From assembly GCA_017557525.1 (NCBI GenBank), contig JAFYYN010000043.1, positions 62,001-126,000 on the forward strand: a DNA stretch of 64,000 nucleotides, written 5' to 3'. The notes under the pieces were generated by a model. That model did not search any database, was not told where the DNA came from, and worked only from the letters and a program-made list of their open reading frames with translations. The DNA comes from Lachnospiraceae bacterium (GTDB lineage Bacteria; Bacillota; Clostridia; Lachnospirales; Lachnospiraceae). The position numbers and the translations under genes were made by a program. Position 1 is the first letter of the stretch; every line of letters begins with the position of its first letter. This document shows, piece by piece, positions 39,453 through 48,730 of this stretch.

Positions 39453-40385
39453 TTAGTCTGTGAATAATGCTGTTGAATAATATCTGTCGCCGCTGTCGGG
39501 AAGAAGTGCAACTATAACCTTGCCCTTGTTCTCGGGTCTCTTTGCAAGCTCTAAAGCTCCATGAAGAGCTGCGCCTGAAGAAATACCTACCGAAATACCT
39601 TCCTTCTTTGCAAGTAACTTAGCTGCTGCGAATGCATCAGCGCCTTCAGCCTTGAAGATCTCATCATAAATTTTTGTGTTAAGGACATCAGGTACAAAGC
39701 CGGCGCCAATACCCTGGATCTTATGAGGGCCTGCCTTGCCTTCTGAAAGGACGGGTGAATCTGAAGGCTCAAGTGCTACTATCTTAACGTTGGGATTCTG
39801 TGACTTTAAGTACTCGCCTGTTCCGGTAAGTGTTCCGCCGGTACCAACGCCCGCGATAAAGATGTCAACCTTTCCGTCTGTATCTCTCCAGATCTCAGGA
39901 CCTGTGGTTGCCTTATGTACTGCAGGGTTAGCGGGATTTACGAACTGTCCGGGGATAAAGCTGTTAGGGATATCCTTAGCAAGCTCTTCTGCCTTGGCAA
40001 TGGCACCCTTCATGCCCTTTGCGCCCTCGGTAAGAACGATCTCAGCACCGTATGCCTTTAAGATGTTTCTTCTCTCAACGCTCATGGTCTCAGGCATGGT
40101 AAGGATGATCCTGTAGCCCTTTGCTGCTGCTATTGAAGCAAGACCGATACCGGTATTTCCACTTGTAGGCTCAATAATTACCGAACCTTCCTTAAGCTGA
40201 CCCTTTGCCTCTGCATCCTCGATCATGGCCTTTGCGATACGATCCTTAACGCTTCCTGCGGGATTGAAATACTCAAGCTTAACAAGTACTGTTGCCTCTA
40301 ATCCCAGTTCCTTTTCAATATTTGTAACCTCTACAAGAGGAGTATTTCCTATAAGACCTAAAGTTCCTTTATAAATGTTTGACAT
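39453..40385 (-). CDS. cysK: Cysteine synthase (O-acetylserine sulfhydrylase)
   Basis: PLP enzyme making cysteine from O-acetylserine and sulfide. In 310 residues the family motifs are clear: IGNTPLVEV, the PLP-lysine segment [10 protein letters not shown], the substrate loop [19 protein letters not shown], the phosphate-binding [27 protein letters not shown] and [10 protein letters not shown]. It is the second gene of the operon after metY, with a 34-base gap, and so under the polycysteine leader attenuator and the Rrf2-type operator upstream of metY. Confidence 0.96.
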
Positions 40386-40419: not shown

Positions 40420-41700
40420 TTATACTGCAGCGAATCCATTCTCTAAATCAGCGATAATATCGTCGATATGCTCTGTACCAATTGAAAGTCTGATCGTGCT
40501 CTGGTTGATGCCCTGATCTAAAAGCTCTTCCTCTGAAAGCTGCGAATGAGTGGTTGTGGCAGGGTGGATAACCAGGCTCTTAACATCTGCAACATTAGCG
40601 AGCAGAGAGAAAATCTTAAGGTTATCAATAAACTTCCAAGCCTCTTCCTTGCCACCCTTGATATCAAATGTGAAGATTGAACCGCCGCCGTTAGGGAAGT
40701 ATTTCTTGTAAAGCTCATGATCGGGATGATCAGGAAGTGAAGGGTGATTAACCTTTGCTACCTTAGGATGGTTCTTTAAGAACTCAACTACCTTCTTTGT
40801 GTTCTCTGCATGTCTGTCAAGTCTTAAGGACAATGTCTCAATGCCCTGAAGAAGAAGGAATGCATTGAAAGGAGAGATTGTAGCACCGGTATCACGAAGA
40901 AGTATTGCTCTGATGAATGTAACAAATGCAGCAGGTCCAACTACATCGTAGAAGGATACTCCATGATAGCTGGGGTTAGGAGCTGCAATGTTCGGATACT
41001 TTCCGCTTGCCTTCCAGTTAAACTTACCCGACTCAACGATTATACCACCAAGTGTGGTGCCATGTCCACCAATAAATTTTGTAGCTGAATGAACTACGAT
41101 GTCAGCACCGTGCTCGAAGGCTCTGAAAAGATAAGGTGTACCAAATGTATTGTCTACTACTACCGGAAGTCCGTACTTGTGAGCGATCTCTGCAATAGCA
41201 TCTACATTGGGGATATCACTGTTGGGATTTCCTAAAGTCTCAAGATAGATGGCTCTGGTGTTATCTTTAATTGCTCCCTCAACCTCTGCAAGGTTATGTG
41301 CATCAACGAAGGTTGTCTCGATACCGTACTGGGGAAGTGTATGTGCAAGCAGGTTGTAGCTGCCGCCGTAAATCGTCTTCTGTGCTACTATATGTCCACC
41401 GTTAGCTGCTAAAGCCTCAATTGTATAGGTGATTGCTGCTGCACCTGATGCAAGTGCCAAAGCAGCGCTGCCGCCCTCAAGAGCCGCTATTCTCTTTTCC
41501 AAAACATCCTGAGTGGTGTTTGTAAGTCTTCCGTAAATGTTGCCTGCATCTGCAAGTCCAAATCTGTCTGCTGCATGCTTGCTGTTATGGAATACATAAG
41601 AAGTTGTCTGGTAAATCGGAACCGCCCTTGAATCTGTAGCGGGATCTGCCTGTTCCTGTCCAACGTGTAACTGTAATGTCTCAAATTTATAATTGCTCAT
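40420..41700 (-). CDS. metY: O-acetylhomoserine/O-acetylserine sulfhydrylase
   Basis: A 426-residue PLP enzyme of the Cys/Met metabolism family that adds sulfide to O-acetylhomoserine, giving homocysteine. Motifs include ALASGAAAITYTIEALAANGGHIV, NPNSDIPNVDAIAEIAHKYG, VVDNTFGTPYLFRAFEHGADIVVHSATKFIGGHG (PLP lysine in SATK), and the C-terminal SLGxxxTLxxHPATTTHSQL-like region. I start at ATG 41700 (MSNYKFETLQLHVGQ, after AAGGAGAAAAAG). A longer in-frame ORF to 41829 would have to be translated through the attenuator terminator and is rejected. Confidence 0.95.
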   Translation of the reverse strand: MSNYKFETLQLHVGQEQADPATDSRAVPIYQTTSYVFHNSKHAADRFGLADAGNIYGRLTNTTQDVLEKRIAALEGGSAALALASGAAAITYTIEALAANGGHIVAQKTIYGGSYNLLAHTLPQYGIETTFVDAHNLAEVEGAIKDNTRAIYLETLGNPNSDIPNVDAIAEIAHKYGLPVVVDNTFGTPYLFRAFEHGADIVVHSATKFIGGHGTTLGGIIVESGKFNWKASGKYPNIAAPNPSYHGVSFYDVVGPAAFVTFIRAILLRDTGATISPFNAFLLLQGIETLSLRLDRHAENTKKVVEFLKNHPKVAKVNHPSLPDHPDHELYKKYFPNGGGSIFTFDIKGGKEEAWKFIDNLKIFSLLANVADVKSLVIHPATTTHSQLSEEELLDQGINQSTIRLSIGTEHIDDIIADLENGFAAV

Positions 41701-41753: not shown

Positions 41754-41780
41754 GTGACAGAAGAACCGTCCCCCTGTCAC
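41754..41780. repeat. GTGACAG-type palindrome after the cys attenuator
   Basis: GTGACAG (41754-41760) pairs with CTGTCAC (41774-41780) around a loop containing ACCGTCCCC. Sequences of this type recur in intergenic regions of many Clostridia. It lies between the attenuator and the metY ribosome site. Confidence 0.5.
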
Positions 41781-41792
41781 ATTTTTCGGGAC

Positions 41793-41828
41793 AATTAAAA
41801 ATGCCCGAGGCACGACTGCTCCCGGGCA
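41793..41828 (-). terminator. Attenuator terminator upstream of metY-cysK
   Basis: On the minus strand TGCCCGGG (41821-41828) pairs with the complementary arm at 41802-41809 over 8 bp (one G-U), followed by TTTTTAATT. The 5' arm is also perfectly complementary over 10 bases to 41917-41926 in the leader ORF, giving a mutually exclusive antiterminator. Confidence 0.9.
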
Positions 41829-41856
41829 AAATGGCTTGAAGAATGTATTTTATAGT

Positions 41857-41979
41857 TCAACATCGTTCAGTTATGAGGCGCATGAAATACTCATCGAACG
41901 CCCCAGCCATATTACGTGCCCGGGAGTTTTGCATTCGACAACAACACATGACGTAAGTTTTCTTATATGTCTTTGTCAT
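41857..41979 (-). CDS. Polycysteine attenuation leader peptide of metY-cysK
   Basis: A 40-residue ORF in the metY leader, starting at ATG 41979 after AGGAAAGGAG. It begins MTKTYKKTYVMCCCRMQ: three consecutive TGT Cys codons at 41938-41946, and a fourth Cys codon directly before the stop. Immediately after the Cys run the RNA contains CTCCCGGGCA (41917-41926), exactly complementary to the terminator 5' arm at 41819-41828. A ribosome stalled for lack of Cys-tRNA would leave that segment free to form the antiterminator; a ribosome translating through would disrupt it. The sequence elements are seen; cysteine-responsive attenuation is the inference. Confidence 0.87.
   Translation of the reverse strand: MTKTYKKTYVMCCCRMQNSRARNMAGAFDEYFMRLITERC
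41917..41926 (-). promoter_or_regulatory. Antiterminator arm in the cys leader
   Basis: A 10-base segment perfectly complementary to 41819-41828, starting about 12 bases downstream of the third Cys codon. A separate GGGGCG/CGCCTC hairpin (about 41875-41905) lies between it and the terminator. Confidence 0.8.
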
Positions 41980-42139
41980 ATATTCCACGCTCCTTTCCTG
42001 AAATTTATAAAACTTTTTCTTTCTTAATTGTTATGTACCCTATAACCTTTGATCTTAGCGGTACATGACTATTTGTTTATCGGAAGTCTCCTGTTTAGAT
42101 CTGCTCTGTGCGATCGGTCTTGTTTCATCCGATGTGTAT

Positions 42140-42168
42140 GTTATATCATAATTAACCTACTATGTCAA
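42140..42168 (-). promoter_or_regulatory. metY-cysK promoter
   Basis: TTGACA (42163-42168), 17 bases, TATAAC (42140-42145) on the minus strand, about 20 bases past the rrf2 stop. Predicted start near 42133, giving a ~430-base leader. Confidence 0.83.
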
Positions 42169-42174
42169 TAGGTT
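42154..42174. promoter_or_regulatory. Candidate Rrf2 operator over the metY -35 box
   Basis: Perfect inverted repeat AACCTA N9 TAGGTT centred on the -35 hexamer. It aligns with ACCTATTATACC-ATAGG in the rrf2 promoter (42615-42631). Confidence 0.6.
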
Positions 42175-42188
42175 TTTGAAAAATTTTT

Positions 42189-42590
42189 TTATTTTTTTAT
42201 CAGATCCGATAATTTCTTATTATCAAAGAAGTCATGTACGAGCTTGTCAAACTCTTCCCACATAGGTAAAGTCTGGCATCCGTCCTTTCTCGGACATATG
42301 ATATCTTTCCCCGCAACACAGGCTACAGGGGACATTGTACCCTCCATAAGCTCGAGAATCTCTCCTACCGAATACTCCTCCGGCTTTCTGCACAGCTTAT
42401 ATCCGCCGCCTTTTCCGCTGGCACCTACTACCAGCCCTCCGGCAACCATATCCTTTACTATTATCTCAAGATATTTCTTTGAAATCTGCTGCCTCTCGGC
42501 TATATCTTTTAATGGGATATAATTCCCGTCATGATTTTCTGCTAGGTCTATCATTACACGTATGGCATATCTGCCTCTGGTTGAAATCAT
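42189..42590 (-). CDS. Rrf2 family regulator (CymR/IscR-like)
   Basis: A 133-residue winged-helix regulator, start chosen at ATG 42590 (MISTRGRYAIRVM) after TTGGAGGACAAAAG. The HTH region is PLKDIAERQQISKKYLEIIVKDMVAGGLV and the wing is SGKGGGYKLCRKPEEYSVG. Three Cys residues at 91, 99 and 105 (C-x7-C-x5-C) sit where IscR binds its [2Fe-2S] cluster, so an iron-sulfur or thiol-sensing role is plausible; CymR, the cysteine repressor of Bacillus, is the other close type. It lies directly upstream of metY-cysK, and both promoters carry a shared inverted repeat, which supports control of sulfur assimilation. Confidence 0.88.
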   Translation of the reverse strand: MISTRGRYAIRVMIDLAENHDGNYIPLKDIAERQQISKKYLEIIVKDMVAGGLVVGASGKGGGYKLCRKPEEYSVGEILELMEGTMSPVACVAGKDIICPRKDGCQTLPMWEEFDKLVHDFFDNKKLSDLIKK

Positions 42591-42614
42591 ATCTTTTGTC
42601 CTCCAAAAGTTTTT

Positions 42615-42631
42615 ACCTATTATACCATAGG
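42615..42631. promoter_or_regulatory. Candidate autoregulatory Rrf2 operator
   Basis: CCTAT N6 ATAGG overlapping the -10 box of the rrf2 promoter. Its sequence parallels the repeat over the metY -35 box. Confidence 0.55.
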
Positions 42632-42647
42632 GTAAGTAGGTTTTCAA
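42619..42647 (-). promoter_or_regulatory. rrf2 promoter
   Basis: TTGAAA (42642-42647), 17 bases, TATAAT (42619-42624) on the minus strand, about 30 bases before the start codon. Confidence 0.75.
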
Positions 42648-48553: not shown

Positions 48554-48595
48554 TTTGTTTTTCCTCCTTTTCCTAAAATCTGAAAGGAAGCTATC

Positions 48596-48628
48596 AAAAA
48601 AGCTTCCCCGACCAAAATCAGGAAAGCT
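48596..48628 (-). terminator. Terminator in the rplJ leader
   Basis: On the minus strand AGCTTTCC pairs with GGGAAGCT (one G-U), followed by TTTTTT. It lies 43 bases before rplJ. Known attenuation of rplJL in Bacillus subtilis uses a terminator in this position. Confidence 0.78.
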
Positions 48629-48649
48629 GTAAATATCATTATTACATCA

Positions 48650-48710
48650 ATCCCTCGGCAGGCGTCTGTATCAGAACTTACACTATAAGTACCTGCTGTC
48701 TTCGGTCATG
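48650..48710 (-). ncRNA. Ribosomal L10 leader
   Basis: The minus strand has CCGAAGACAGCAGG paired across a loop with GCCTGCCGAGG, the hallmark of the Firmicutes L10 leader bound by the L10-L12 complex. It lies between the rplJ promoter (48731-48759) and the leader terminator. Confidence 0.8.
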
Positions 48711-48730
48711 CTGTTTTCACAACAAATGGT

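Follow-up and report, generated by a model that had tools for sequence, protein, structure and literature searches.

The leader that separates the gene of an Rrf2-family regulator from metY and cysK, on the minus strand of the window (the whole stretch of 64,000 nucleotides of Lachnospiraceae DNA that was analysed), is best read as a ribosome-mediated transcription attenuator that would sense charged Cys-tRNA, a reading to which a probability of about 0.9 can be given. The parts of the attenuator, their conservation, their covariation and their gene context are drawn from sequence, and the switch has been modelled; within this reading we infer the translation of the leader, the stalling of the ribosome by a shortage of Cys-tRNA, the binding of the Rrf2 protein and read-through in vivo. 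The leader is a real, conserved and probably functional cysteine attenuator of a regulon-wide family. Its logic is classical; its setting and its scale appear to be new.

Organization of the metY-cysK leader

A sequence-only reading of this DNA had claimed a 40-codon ORF with a good ribosome site, and such an ORF is borne out at 41860..41979 (minus), where the sequence and the homologous peptides define a leader peptide of 40 codons, MTKTYKKTYVMCCCRMQNSRARNMAGAFDEYFMRLITERC, with the Shine-Dalgarno sequence AAGGAG (41995-41990) 10 nt ahead of the ATG at 41979. The three consecutive TGT codons, taken here as the regulatory Cys codons, lie at 41938..41946 on the same strand, as had been stated. 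The putative 5' arm of the antiterminator, CTCCCGGGCA (41917..41926, minus), starts 11 nt past the last Cys codon, roughly as far as a stalled ribosome would extend. As had also been claimed, it is the exact complement, base by base, of TGCCCGGGAG (41828-41819, minus), which would serve both as the 5' arm of the terminator and as the 3' arm of the antiterminator; its assignment as an antiterminator arm is based on this complementarity and on covariation. When the leader was shuffled 20000 times by mononucleotides, a full 10-nt complement to the terminator arm arose once, and chance complementarity of the arms is ruled out by these shuffles together with permutations of the arms. The U-tailed terminator of the sequence-only reading is likewise present as an intrinsic terminator (41797..41828, minus; -18.9 kcal/mol), with a stem at 41828-41802 and TTTTT at 41801-41797, and it sits, as it would in an attenuator, between the leader ORF and the first gene, metY.

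Two further elements go beyond what had been noted. The first is a predicted pre-antiterminator hairpin (hairpin 1; 41894..41938, minus; -21.2 kcal/mol), whose arms, UCGAAUGC (41938-41931) and GCGUUCGA (41901-41894), enclose the antiterminator arm and would sequester it; UCGAAUGC overlaps the third Cys codon by a single base, with which that codon ends and UCGAAUGC begins. The second is an antiterminator of more than 10 bp, extended on the minus strand by a helix between AUGGCU (41905..41910) and AGCCAU (41831-41836), the latter strand lying directly 5' of the terminator arm in the window, and by a third helix, GGGGCGU (41904-41898) with GCGCCUC (41881-41875), which spans 41875..41904 and is predicted in the window only. 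Other repeats are seen nearby: past the terminator and ahead of metY, at 41754-41780, stands the inverted repeat GTGACAGGGGGACGGTTCTTCTGTCAC, which has the look of a dispersed element, and short inverted repeats (e.g. GTACC...GGGTAC) occupy 42005-42090 (minus), near the 5' end of the leader and ahead of the ORF.

The attenuators of the trp, his and phe operons consist of a leader ORF with control codons and of mutually exclusive pre-antiterminator, antiterminator and terminator structures. The metY-cysK leader has the same leader ORF, antiterminator and terminator, and a predicted pre-antiterminator that is clear in the window and moderately supported by comparison, and in both cases the regulated genes make the amino acid that is sensed; it differs in that the amino acid is cysteine and the setting the Clostridia, in that one homologous module is reused before several operons, and in that the modules stand mostly behind a shared operator-like site instead of forming one operon-specific attenuator. 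With cysteine plentiful, the ribosome would pass the three Cys codons and the hairpin 41938-41894 would form behind it, locking the antiterminator arm, so that the terminator would form and transcription would stop before metY-cysK. With Cys-tRNA short, the ribosome would stall on the Cys codons and cover the 5' strand of hairpin 1 while leaving the arm 11 nt ahead exposed; the freed arm would then pair with the 5' strand of the terminator, and RNA polymerase would read into metY-cysK.

Distribution among relatives

The leader is a member of a homologous family that stands before several sulfur operons across the Clostridia, sometimes with several members per genome. Homologues of the 40-residue peptide of the window occur in genomes of the same family. 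The peptide search gave matches in 94 of 299 genomes when listed at E values up to 1, many of them chance matches, and places with a CC(C)RM/SRA-like pattern were carried forward by eye; this yielded 20 regions, one of them (L038) without a leader; L025 came from the peptide search. A covariance model, R1, was built from 20 leaders, the alignment of which excluded L036 with its large insertion. At E<=0.01, R1 finds 65 places in 50 of 397 genomes of the same family, the own genome included, with up to four copies per genome, and it has matches in 14 of 391 genomes of the same class, of which 12 do not belong to the family. No R1 match was obtained in G134, the second genome of the window's genus. 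The exact core pattern is present in at least 120 stretches of genomes of named species, and the 80 matches listed are mostly rumen or gut records assigned to Lachnospiraceae, Ruminococcaceae, Ruminococcus, Saccharofermentans, Clostridiales or Clostridia. Among the 50 metY places most like that of the window, 10 have an R1 leader just upstream, and the upstream regions of the remaining 40 have no significant R1 match (best E 0.095). The statistics below refer to a set of 83 leaders, from which an 84th match, the reverse strand of L052, was excluded.

Conservation of the Cys run and of the 10-bp complementarity in relatives had been set as a test that could refute the attenuator claim. Both are conserved, and the claim was not refuted. 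A search of metY/cysK leaders in related genomes had been suggested; the Cys codons, the frame, the Shine-Dalgarno sequence and the pairing of antiterminator and terminator are kept, with compensatory changes, in many of the relatives and for the most part in front of sulfur genes, which supports the interpretation of the leader as a Cys peptide attenuator.

The own genome has a second leader (L119; G000:C37, 1335-3198, minus), a weaker R1 match (E=3.2e-9) with the leader peptide MIANNTFYQNTVMCCRMYRFGHIMCPEHSALYCCVPV. Its main arms, read by eye as TTCGGACATA and TATGTCCGGAA, give a duplex of -21.6 kcal/mol, and its hairpin 1 is CGAATGT/ACATTCG (-12.7); the letters have changed relative to the window, yet both pairings are retained. 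Downstream are a JAB/JAMM-domain gene (Pfam Prok-JAB, 3.4e-19) and a gene for a ThiF-rhodanese protein of the MoeB type, the N-terminal part of which looks, by eye, like a sulfur carrier. We take this operon to be reminiscent of the CysO-Mec+ route to cysteine, which uses protein-bound sulfide.

Conservation of the reading frame and of the pairings

The frame of the Cys codons holds an ORF led by a Shine-Dalgarno sequence in 74 of the 83 leaders, as against 3 and 3 for the other two frames, and the distance from start to Cys codons peaks at 36 nt (34 of the 74). At the site of the Cys codons all 74 ORFs have at least one such codon and 65 have at least two, counts that are partly ascertained, since the leaders used to build R1 had Cys codons themselves. 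The nine leaders outside the 74 include L132, in which both the ORF and the Cys codons depart from the frame of R1, and L163, a weak R1 match with an ORF of its own without Cys; the rest have Cys codons in frame but fail the Shine-Dalgarno or the length rule. Another weak match, L148, has a stop shortly after the Cys codons. When the frame of the R1 match is counted instead, Cys codons are present in 82 of 83 leaders, the exception being L132, and codon use is 174 TGT and 28 TGC; past the Cys cluster, Cys accounts for 100 of 1343 codons. In the weaker R1 matches the Cys codons shift, interleave with Met and switch between TGT and TGC (CMCMC, CCCC, CMRM). A leader ORF with control codons for cysteine is present, as in other attenuators, and the conservation of its frame and Shine-Dalgarno sequence suggests that it is translated.

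The pairings are also maintained. Changes on both sides are found in 14 of 15 pairs of the antiterminator (75 cells against 20.4 in shuffled data, 0/500), a count made over 84 rows that include the reverse strand of L052, in an alignment fitted to that structure; in the second helix of the antiterminator all five pairs counted have such changes. The MAFFT alignment of 20 leaders gives 11 cells against 3.3 shuffled (0/500). The duplex of each arm with its own terminator averages -24.2 kcal/mol, against -21.4 kcal/mol when permuted (0/10000; 81 of 83 leaders), and in the 40 leaders that lack the common CCCGGGC the figures are -21.0 and -16.8 kcal/mol (0/10000). An antiterminator that excludes the terminator has been kept, then, by compensatory change. 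Hairpin 1 has moderate comparative support: 66% of the cells of its lower stem are paired, and for the 34 leaders with a changed arm, 59 of 10000 permutations were as good.

One might suppose that the element works independently of translation, as a riboswitch, a T-box or a protein-bound antiterminator, and that the ORF is incidental. The very conserved nucleotides CGAATG, CTCCCGGGCA and TATGGCTGGGGCG could be read in this way, as could the operator-like site in front of the leader, but the conserved nucleotides are largely explained by the two overlapping pairings, the frame and the Shine-Dalgarno sequence are conserved, and the Cys codons of the weaker matches stay Cys even as they move and alternate between TGT and TGC in the patterns given above. 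At the window leader no family of Rfam 15 reaches its threshold, and a search at E values up to 10 returned three chance-like matches. Both a T-box and a SAM (S-box) riboswitch were rejected, there being no Rfam match to either at the window leader or in the 40 related metY upstream regions. Such a translation-independent element is very improbable. The sole match of the window at a gathering threshold of Rfam is the ribosomal protein L10 leader (RF00557) at 48587-48723 (minus). As for known protein families, six leader peptides had no NCBIfam match and the window peptide had no Pfam match.

Modelling of the proposed ribosome-dependent switch

The 101-nt stretch around hairpin 1 does not fold better than its shuffles (z -0.51), so that energy alone says nothing for this hairpin, and the stretches that contain the antiterminator pairing do fold better than shuffles (z -3.24 and z -4.88). 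To model the cysteine attenuator, the ribosome footprint was masked codon by codon and pair probabilities were computed under equilibrium folding. When the A site is placed on each of the window's three Cys codons in turn, the predicted probability of the terminator is 0.02, 0.02 and 0.01; it is 0.07 on the CGA codon after them, then 0.96-0.97 across the next thirteen codons, 0.97 with the ribosome at the stop codon and 0.85 with no ribosome. The probability is also lowered when the ribosome stands 8-10 codons upstream of the first Cys codon or 19-20 codons downstream of it, so the model of the window's switch is not perfectly specific.

Across 79 leaders the median modelled probability of the terminator is 0.01 with the ribosome stalled at Cys and 0.82 with the ribosome at the stop codon. 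A shift of more than 0.3 occurs in the expected direction in 33 of the 79 and in the opposite direction in 3; the terminator keeps a probability above 0.5 despite a ribosome at Cys in 22, and has one below 0.2 with the ribosome at the stop codon in 21. For a sizeable share of the relatives the model does not reproduce the switch. Averaged over some 79 leaders, the probability at codons three, four, five and six of the match is 0.42, 0.53, 0.79 and 0.88, a clear step, and upstream of the Cys codons it is 0.36-0.44, no higher than at the Cys codons themselves; since the positions upstream give the same low-to-middling values as the Cys codons, the downstream edge alone is sharp. The terminators used in these analyses were chosen automatically, which retained 81, 79 and 80 of the 83 leaders for the duplex, stall/stop and per-codon analyses, and some of those chosen are poor, e.g. 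that of L131.

Genes downstream of the leaders

In the window the first gene is metY (40420..41700, minus), for an O-acetylhomoserine/O-acetylserine sulfhydrylase (TIGR01326, 625 bits against a cut-off of 495.1), and the second is cysK (39453..40385, minus), for cysteine synthase A (TIGR01139, 450.9 bits against 350.95). Genes of the amino acid that would be sensed thus lie downstream, as they do in other attenuators. For the whole set, the downstream gene was taken as the longest ORF that starts within 700 nt of the leader, by which rule a small first gene can be missed, as the JAMM gene of L119 was. By BLASTP clusters the 83 downstream genes comprise 41 for MetY and its relatives, 20 for ABC substrate-binding proteins, 5 for permeases, 4 for GST-C proteins, 3 for MetN-like ATPases, 2 for MoeB-type proteins and 8 single ones. 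Representatives were scanned with HMMs (17 by NCBIfam; seven downstream genes and the Rrf2 protein of the window by Pfam). They include binding proteins of the MetQ/NlpA type and of the polar-amino-acid/cystine type and a MetN-like ATPase, all of which score below equivalog or subfamily cut-offs, and also an enzyme of the cystathionine lyase/synthase type and a GCS2 glutamate-cysteine ligase-like protein. The gene downstream of L106 is cysK, by eye from its likeness to the CysK of the window. A minority of the genes (SDR, cyclase, M20 peptidase, LysR) do not obviously belong to sulfur metabolism. The leaders precede mainly enzymes of cysteine and methionine metabolism and transporters of the amino-acid and MetQ types. 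One leader (L047:1199-3661) stands before a gene for (2S)-3-sulfopropanediol dehydratase that scores above its cut-off; it would tie the desulfonation of organosulfonates to cysteine shortage.

Promoter, operator-like site and the Rrf2 gene

Ahead of the leader lies an operator-like palindrome, CCTATTGACATAGTAGG (42156..42172, minus), that contains the -35 sequence TTGACA. Together with TATAAC at 42145-42140 (minus) as the -10 sequence, it makes a promoter, TTGACA-17-TATAAC, that was read by eye; a sigma-70 scan called no promoter here because its rule demands T as the last base of the -10 sequence. The regulator gene upstream (42189..42647, minus, with a true start that may be at about 42590) belongs to the Rrf2 family (Pfam Rrf2, E=1.5e-31), and the Rrf2 superfamily model of NCBIfam is matched above its cut-off. 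The equivalog models of IscR (93.2 against a cut-off of 207.55 bits) and of CymR (87.8 against 195 bits) also match, in both cases below the cut-off.

A search of the own genome for CCTATTGACATAGTAGG with up to two mismatches gave two sites; each is an exact copy and precedes a leader, and the reversed control pattern gave one plus one sites. Before 62 of the 83 leaders a site shares 14 or more of the 17 bases with this palindrome, and in the controls (shuffled upstream regions and downstream DNA) the best sites reach 12 of 17. The leader family stands mostly behind this shared operator-like site, and the site may belong to the adjacent Rrf2 regulator, a probable, if putative, owner. The palindrome, exact or with one mismatch, is also seen before metY genes without a visible Cys leader (L285, L295, L296, L302, L305, L306 and L307). 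Since the operator also precedes such leaderless genes, its gain and loss seem to be independent of those of the attenuator.

It could be argued from the frequency of this site, before 62 of 83 leaders and before leaderless metY genes alike, that a repressor at the promoter is the whole of the control and that the structures of the leader are a relic, but before the other 21 leaders no site reaches 14 of the 17 bases. The compensatory changes in the antiterminator, together with the co-variation of its arms, point to selection on the pairing. There is hardly any likelihood that repression alone accounts for the control.

A second class of Cys-rich leaders

Inspection by eye of the 40 metY upstream regions without an R1 match, made to reduce the bias that R1 brings, revealed seven Cys-rich ORFs of another form, so that some Cys-rich leader is present at 17 of the 50 metY places most like that of the window. 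In six of the seven (L299, L300, L301, L303, L308 and L316) the peptide reads (L/V)RxN(F/Y/C)RxGRM, followed by Cys codons. L315 (G049:C13) has a third Cys-rich form, MMMCCMDGMMCM, about 275 nt before metY, with a terminator of its own and without an R1 match. A profile of the GRM form found 22 places in 20 of 250 genomes of the family, of which 17 were taken as genuine (L324-L337, L340, L344 and L345), in upstream regions, mostly of metY, from same-family genomes; L341 and L342 were rejected on reading, and L338, L339 and L343 were dropped for long or interrupted frames. In 249 genomes of the phylum the same profile gave four weak places, none with the motif.

The codons of this class were analysed in 18 leaders (the 17 genuine ones and L117), chosen by the motif R.N[YFCHW]R.GRM. 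The Arg before Met is CGA in all 18, and the other conserved positions of Arg, Asn and Gly use several synonymous codons. Cys codons follow the Met of GRM in 15 of the 18, and the other three end GRM-UGA without Cys. Terminators were visible by eye in four (L326=L308, L344, L329=L122 and L117), and modelling of the accessibility of the Shine-Dalgarno sequence in 14 leaders of the class gave mixed results. As L117 and L122 also match R1, the GRM class and the R1 class look related.

These leaders bear on the question of whether the peptide itself, as a nascent arrest peptide that senses a sulfur metabolite, rather than hungry Cys codons, could stall the ribosome. The second class has the conserved sequence L(V/L)RxN(F/Y)RxGRM, maintained through synonymous change and in 3 of 18 cases ending in GRM and a stop without Cys, and in the R1 class the Arg-Met pair next to the Cys codons is kept (CGA in 64 and ATG in 71 of 83 leaders). 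In the class of the window, however, the residues before the Cys codons are by eye unconserved, several members have a Cys codon or another one in place of CGA, each of the 74 clear ORFs contains Cys codons, and CGAATG doubles as one strand of hairpin 1. Arrest by the peptide is improbable for the window leader. A broader idea, that one evolutionary family of leaders controls the sulfur genes of Clostridia in two ways, by Cys attenuation and by a metabolite-sensing arrest peptide of the form L(V/L)RxN(F/Y)RxGRM, is speculative and on balance unlikely; it would have attenuation at Cys codons evolve from, or into, the arrest-peptide class.

Comparison with known cysteine leaders

The closest likeness to the cysteine attenuator of the window may be looked for among described Cys leaders. 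In the accessible text of its description (PMC8632094), uORFC-8-2 is found before cysS in Rhodobacterales only and has two prominent stems; like the leader described here, it combines a uORF, two tandem Cys codons (within the first stem) and then a U-tailed terminator. The present leaders are set apart, as far as that description goes, by their position before enzymes, transporters and sulfur carriers and by the covariation of the antiterminator, and the window leader was rejected as a uORFC-8-2 since it precedes metY-cysK in Lachnospiraceae, not cysS in Rhodobacterales. The Cys leader peptides of Actinobacteria (PMC1262725) likewise come from short ORFs that contain Cys codons and precede cysteine operons; by the portion of that paper available, they have no obvious terminators and their Cys runs are near the stop codon, whereas here there are a Shine-Dalgarno sequence, a longer ORF and a terminator. 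The polycysteine sORFs of mycobacteria (Canestrari 2020) form a cysteine-responsive attenuator by the title of the paper and are called leaderless; the window leader was rejected as a member of this type, as it has a Shine-Dalgarno sequence, a 5' untranslated stretch and a terminator.

Within the Firmicutes, His leader peptides before hisS and hisZ have been described in bacilli (PMC2965389, from the accessible part), a case of a regular leader peptide in place of a T-box, but for histidine and in bacilli. In clostridia, cysteine-specific T-boxes have been reported before cysK and transporters, and it was considered that other mechanisms may exist (PMC2940859, as far as its accessible text goes). 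These T-boxes are similar in that Cys-tRNA is sensed by premature termination before cysK and transporters; T-boxes bind the tRNA directly via conserved boxes, unlike the window leader, which has no T-box match. The sequence-only reading had called a Cys peptide attenuator unusual for a Lachnospiraceae-type genome, a view that fits with the reported T-boxes, on the part of PMC2940859 available. Among the papers listed in the literature searched, which was scant on subscription papers, none could be recognized from its title, the opening of its abstract or excerpts as treating a Cys leader peptide in Firmicutes.

Implications for sulfur metabolism in gut and rumen Clostridia

In the wider group the control of cysteine genes has been credited to CymR-type repressors and to T-boxes (PMC2940859, accessible text). 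Control by a repressor and control by the attenuator may act in series at the operons described here. The family would put under the control of cysteine starvation some genes that are not commonly linked with it in this setting: the JAMM/MoeB-type rhodanese operon, the sulfopropanediol dehydratase gene and the glutamate-cysteine ligase-like gene. It is searchable, has no match in Rfam 15, and can be of use in annotation, to mark transporters and enzymes that are under cysteine control. If the reading is true, a regulon-wide attenuator that senses Cys-tRNA would be added to the regulation of sulfur genes in the Clostridia of the gut and the rumen.
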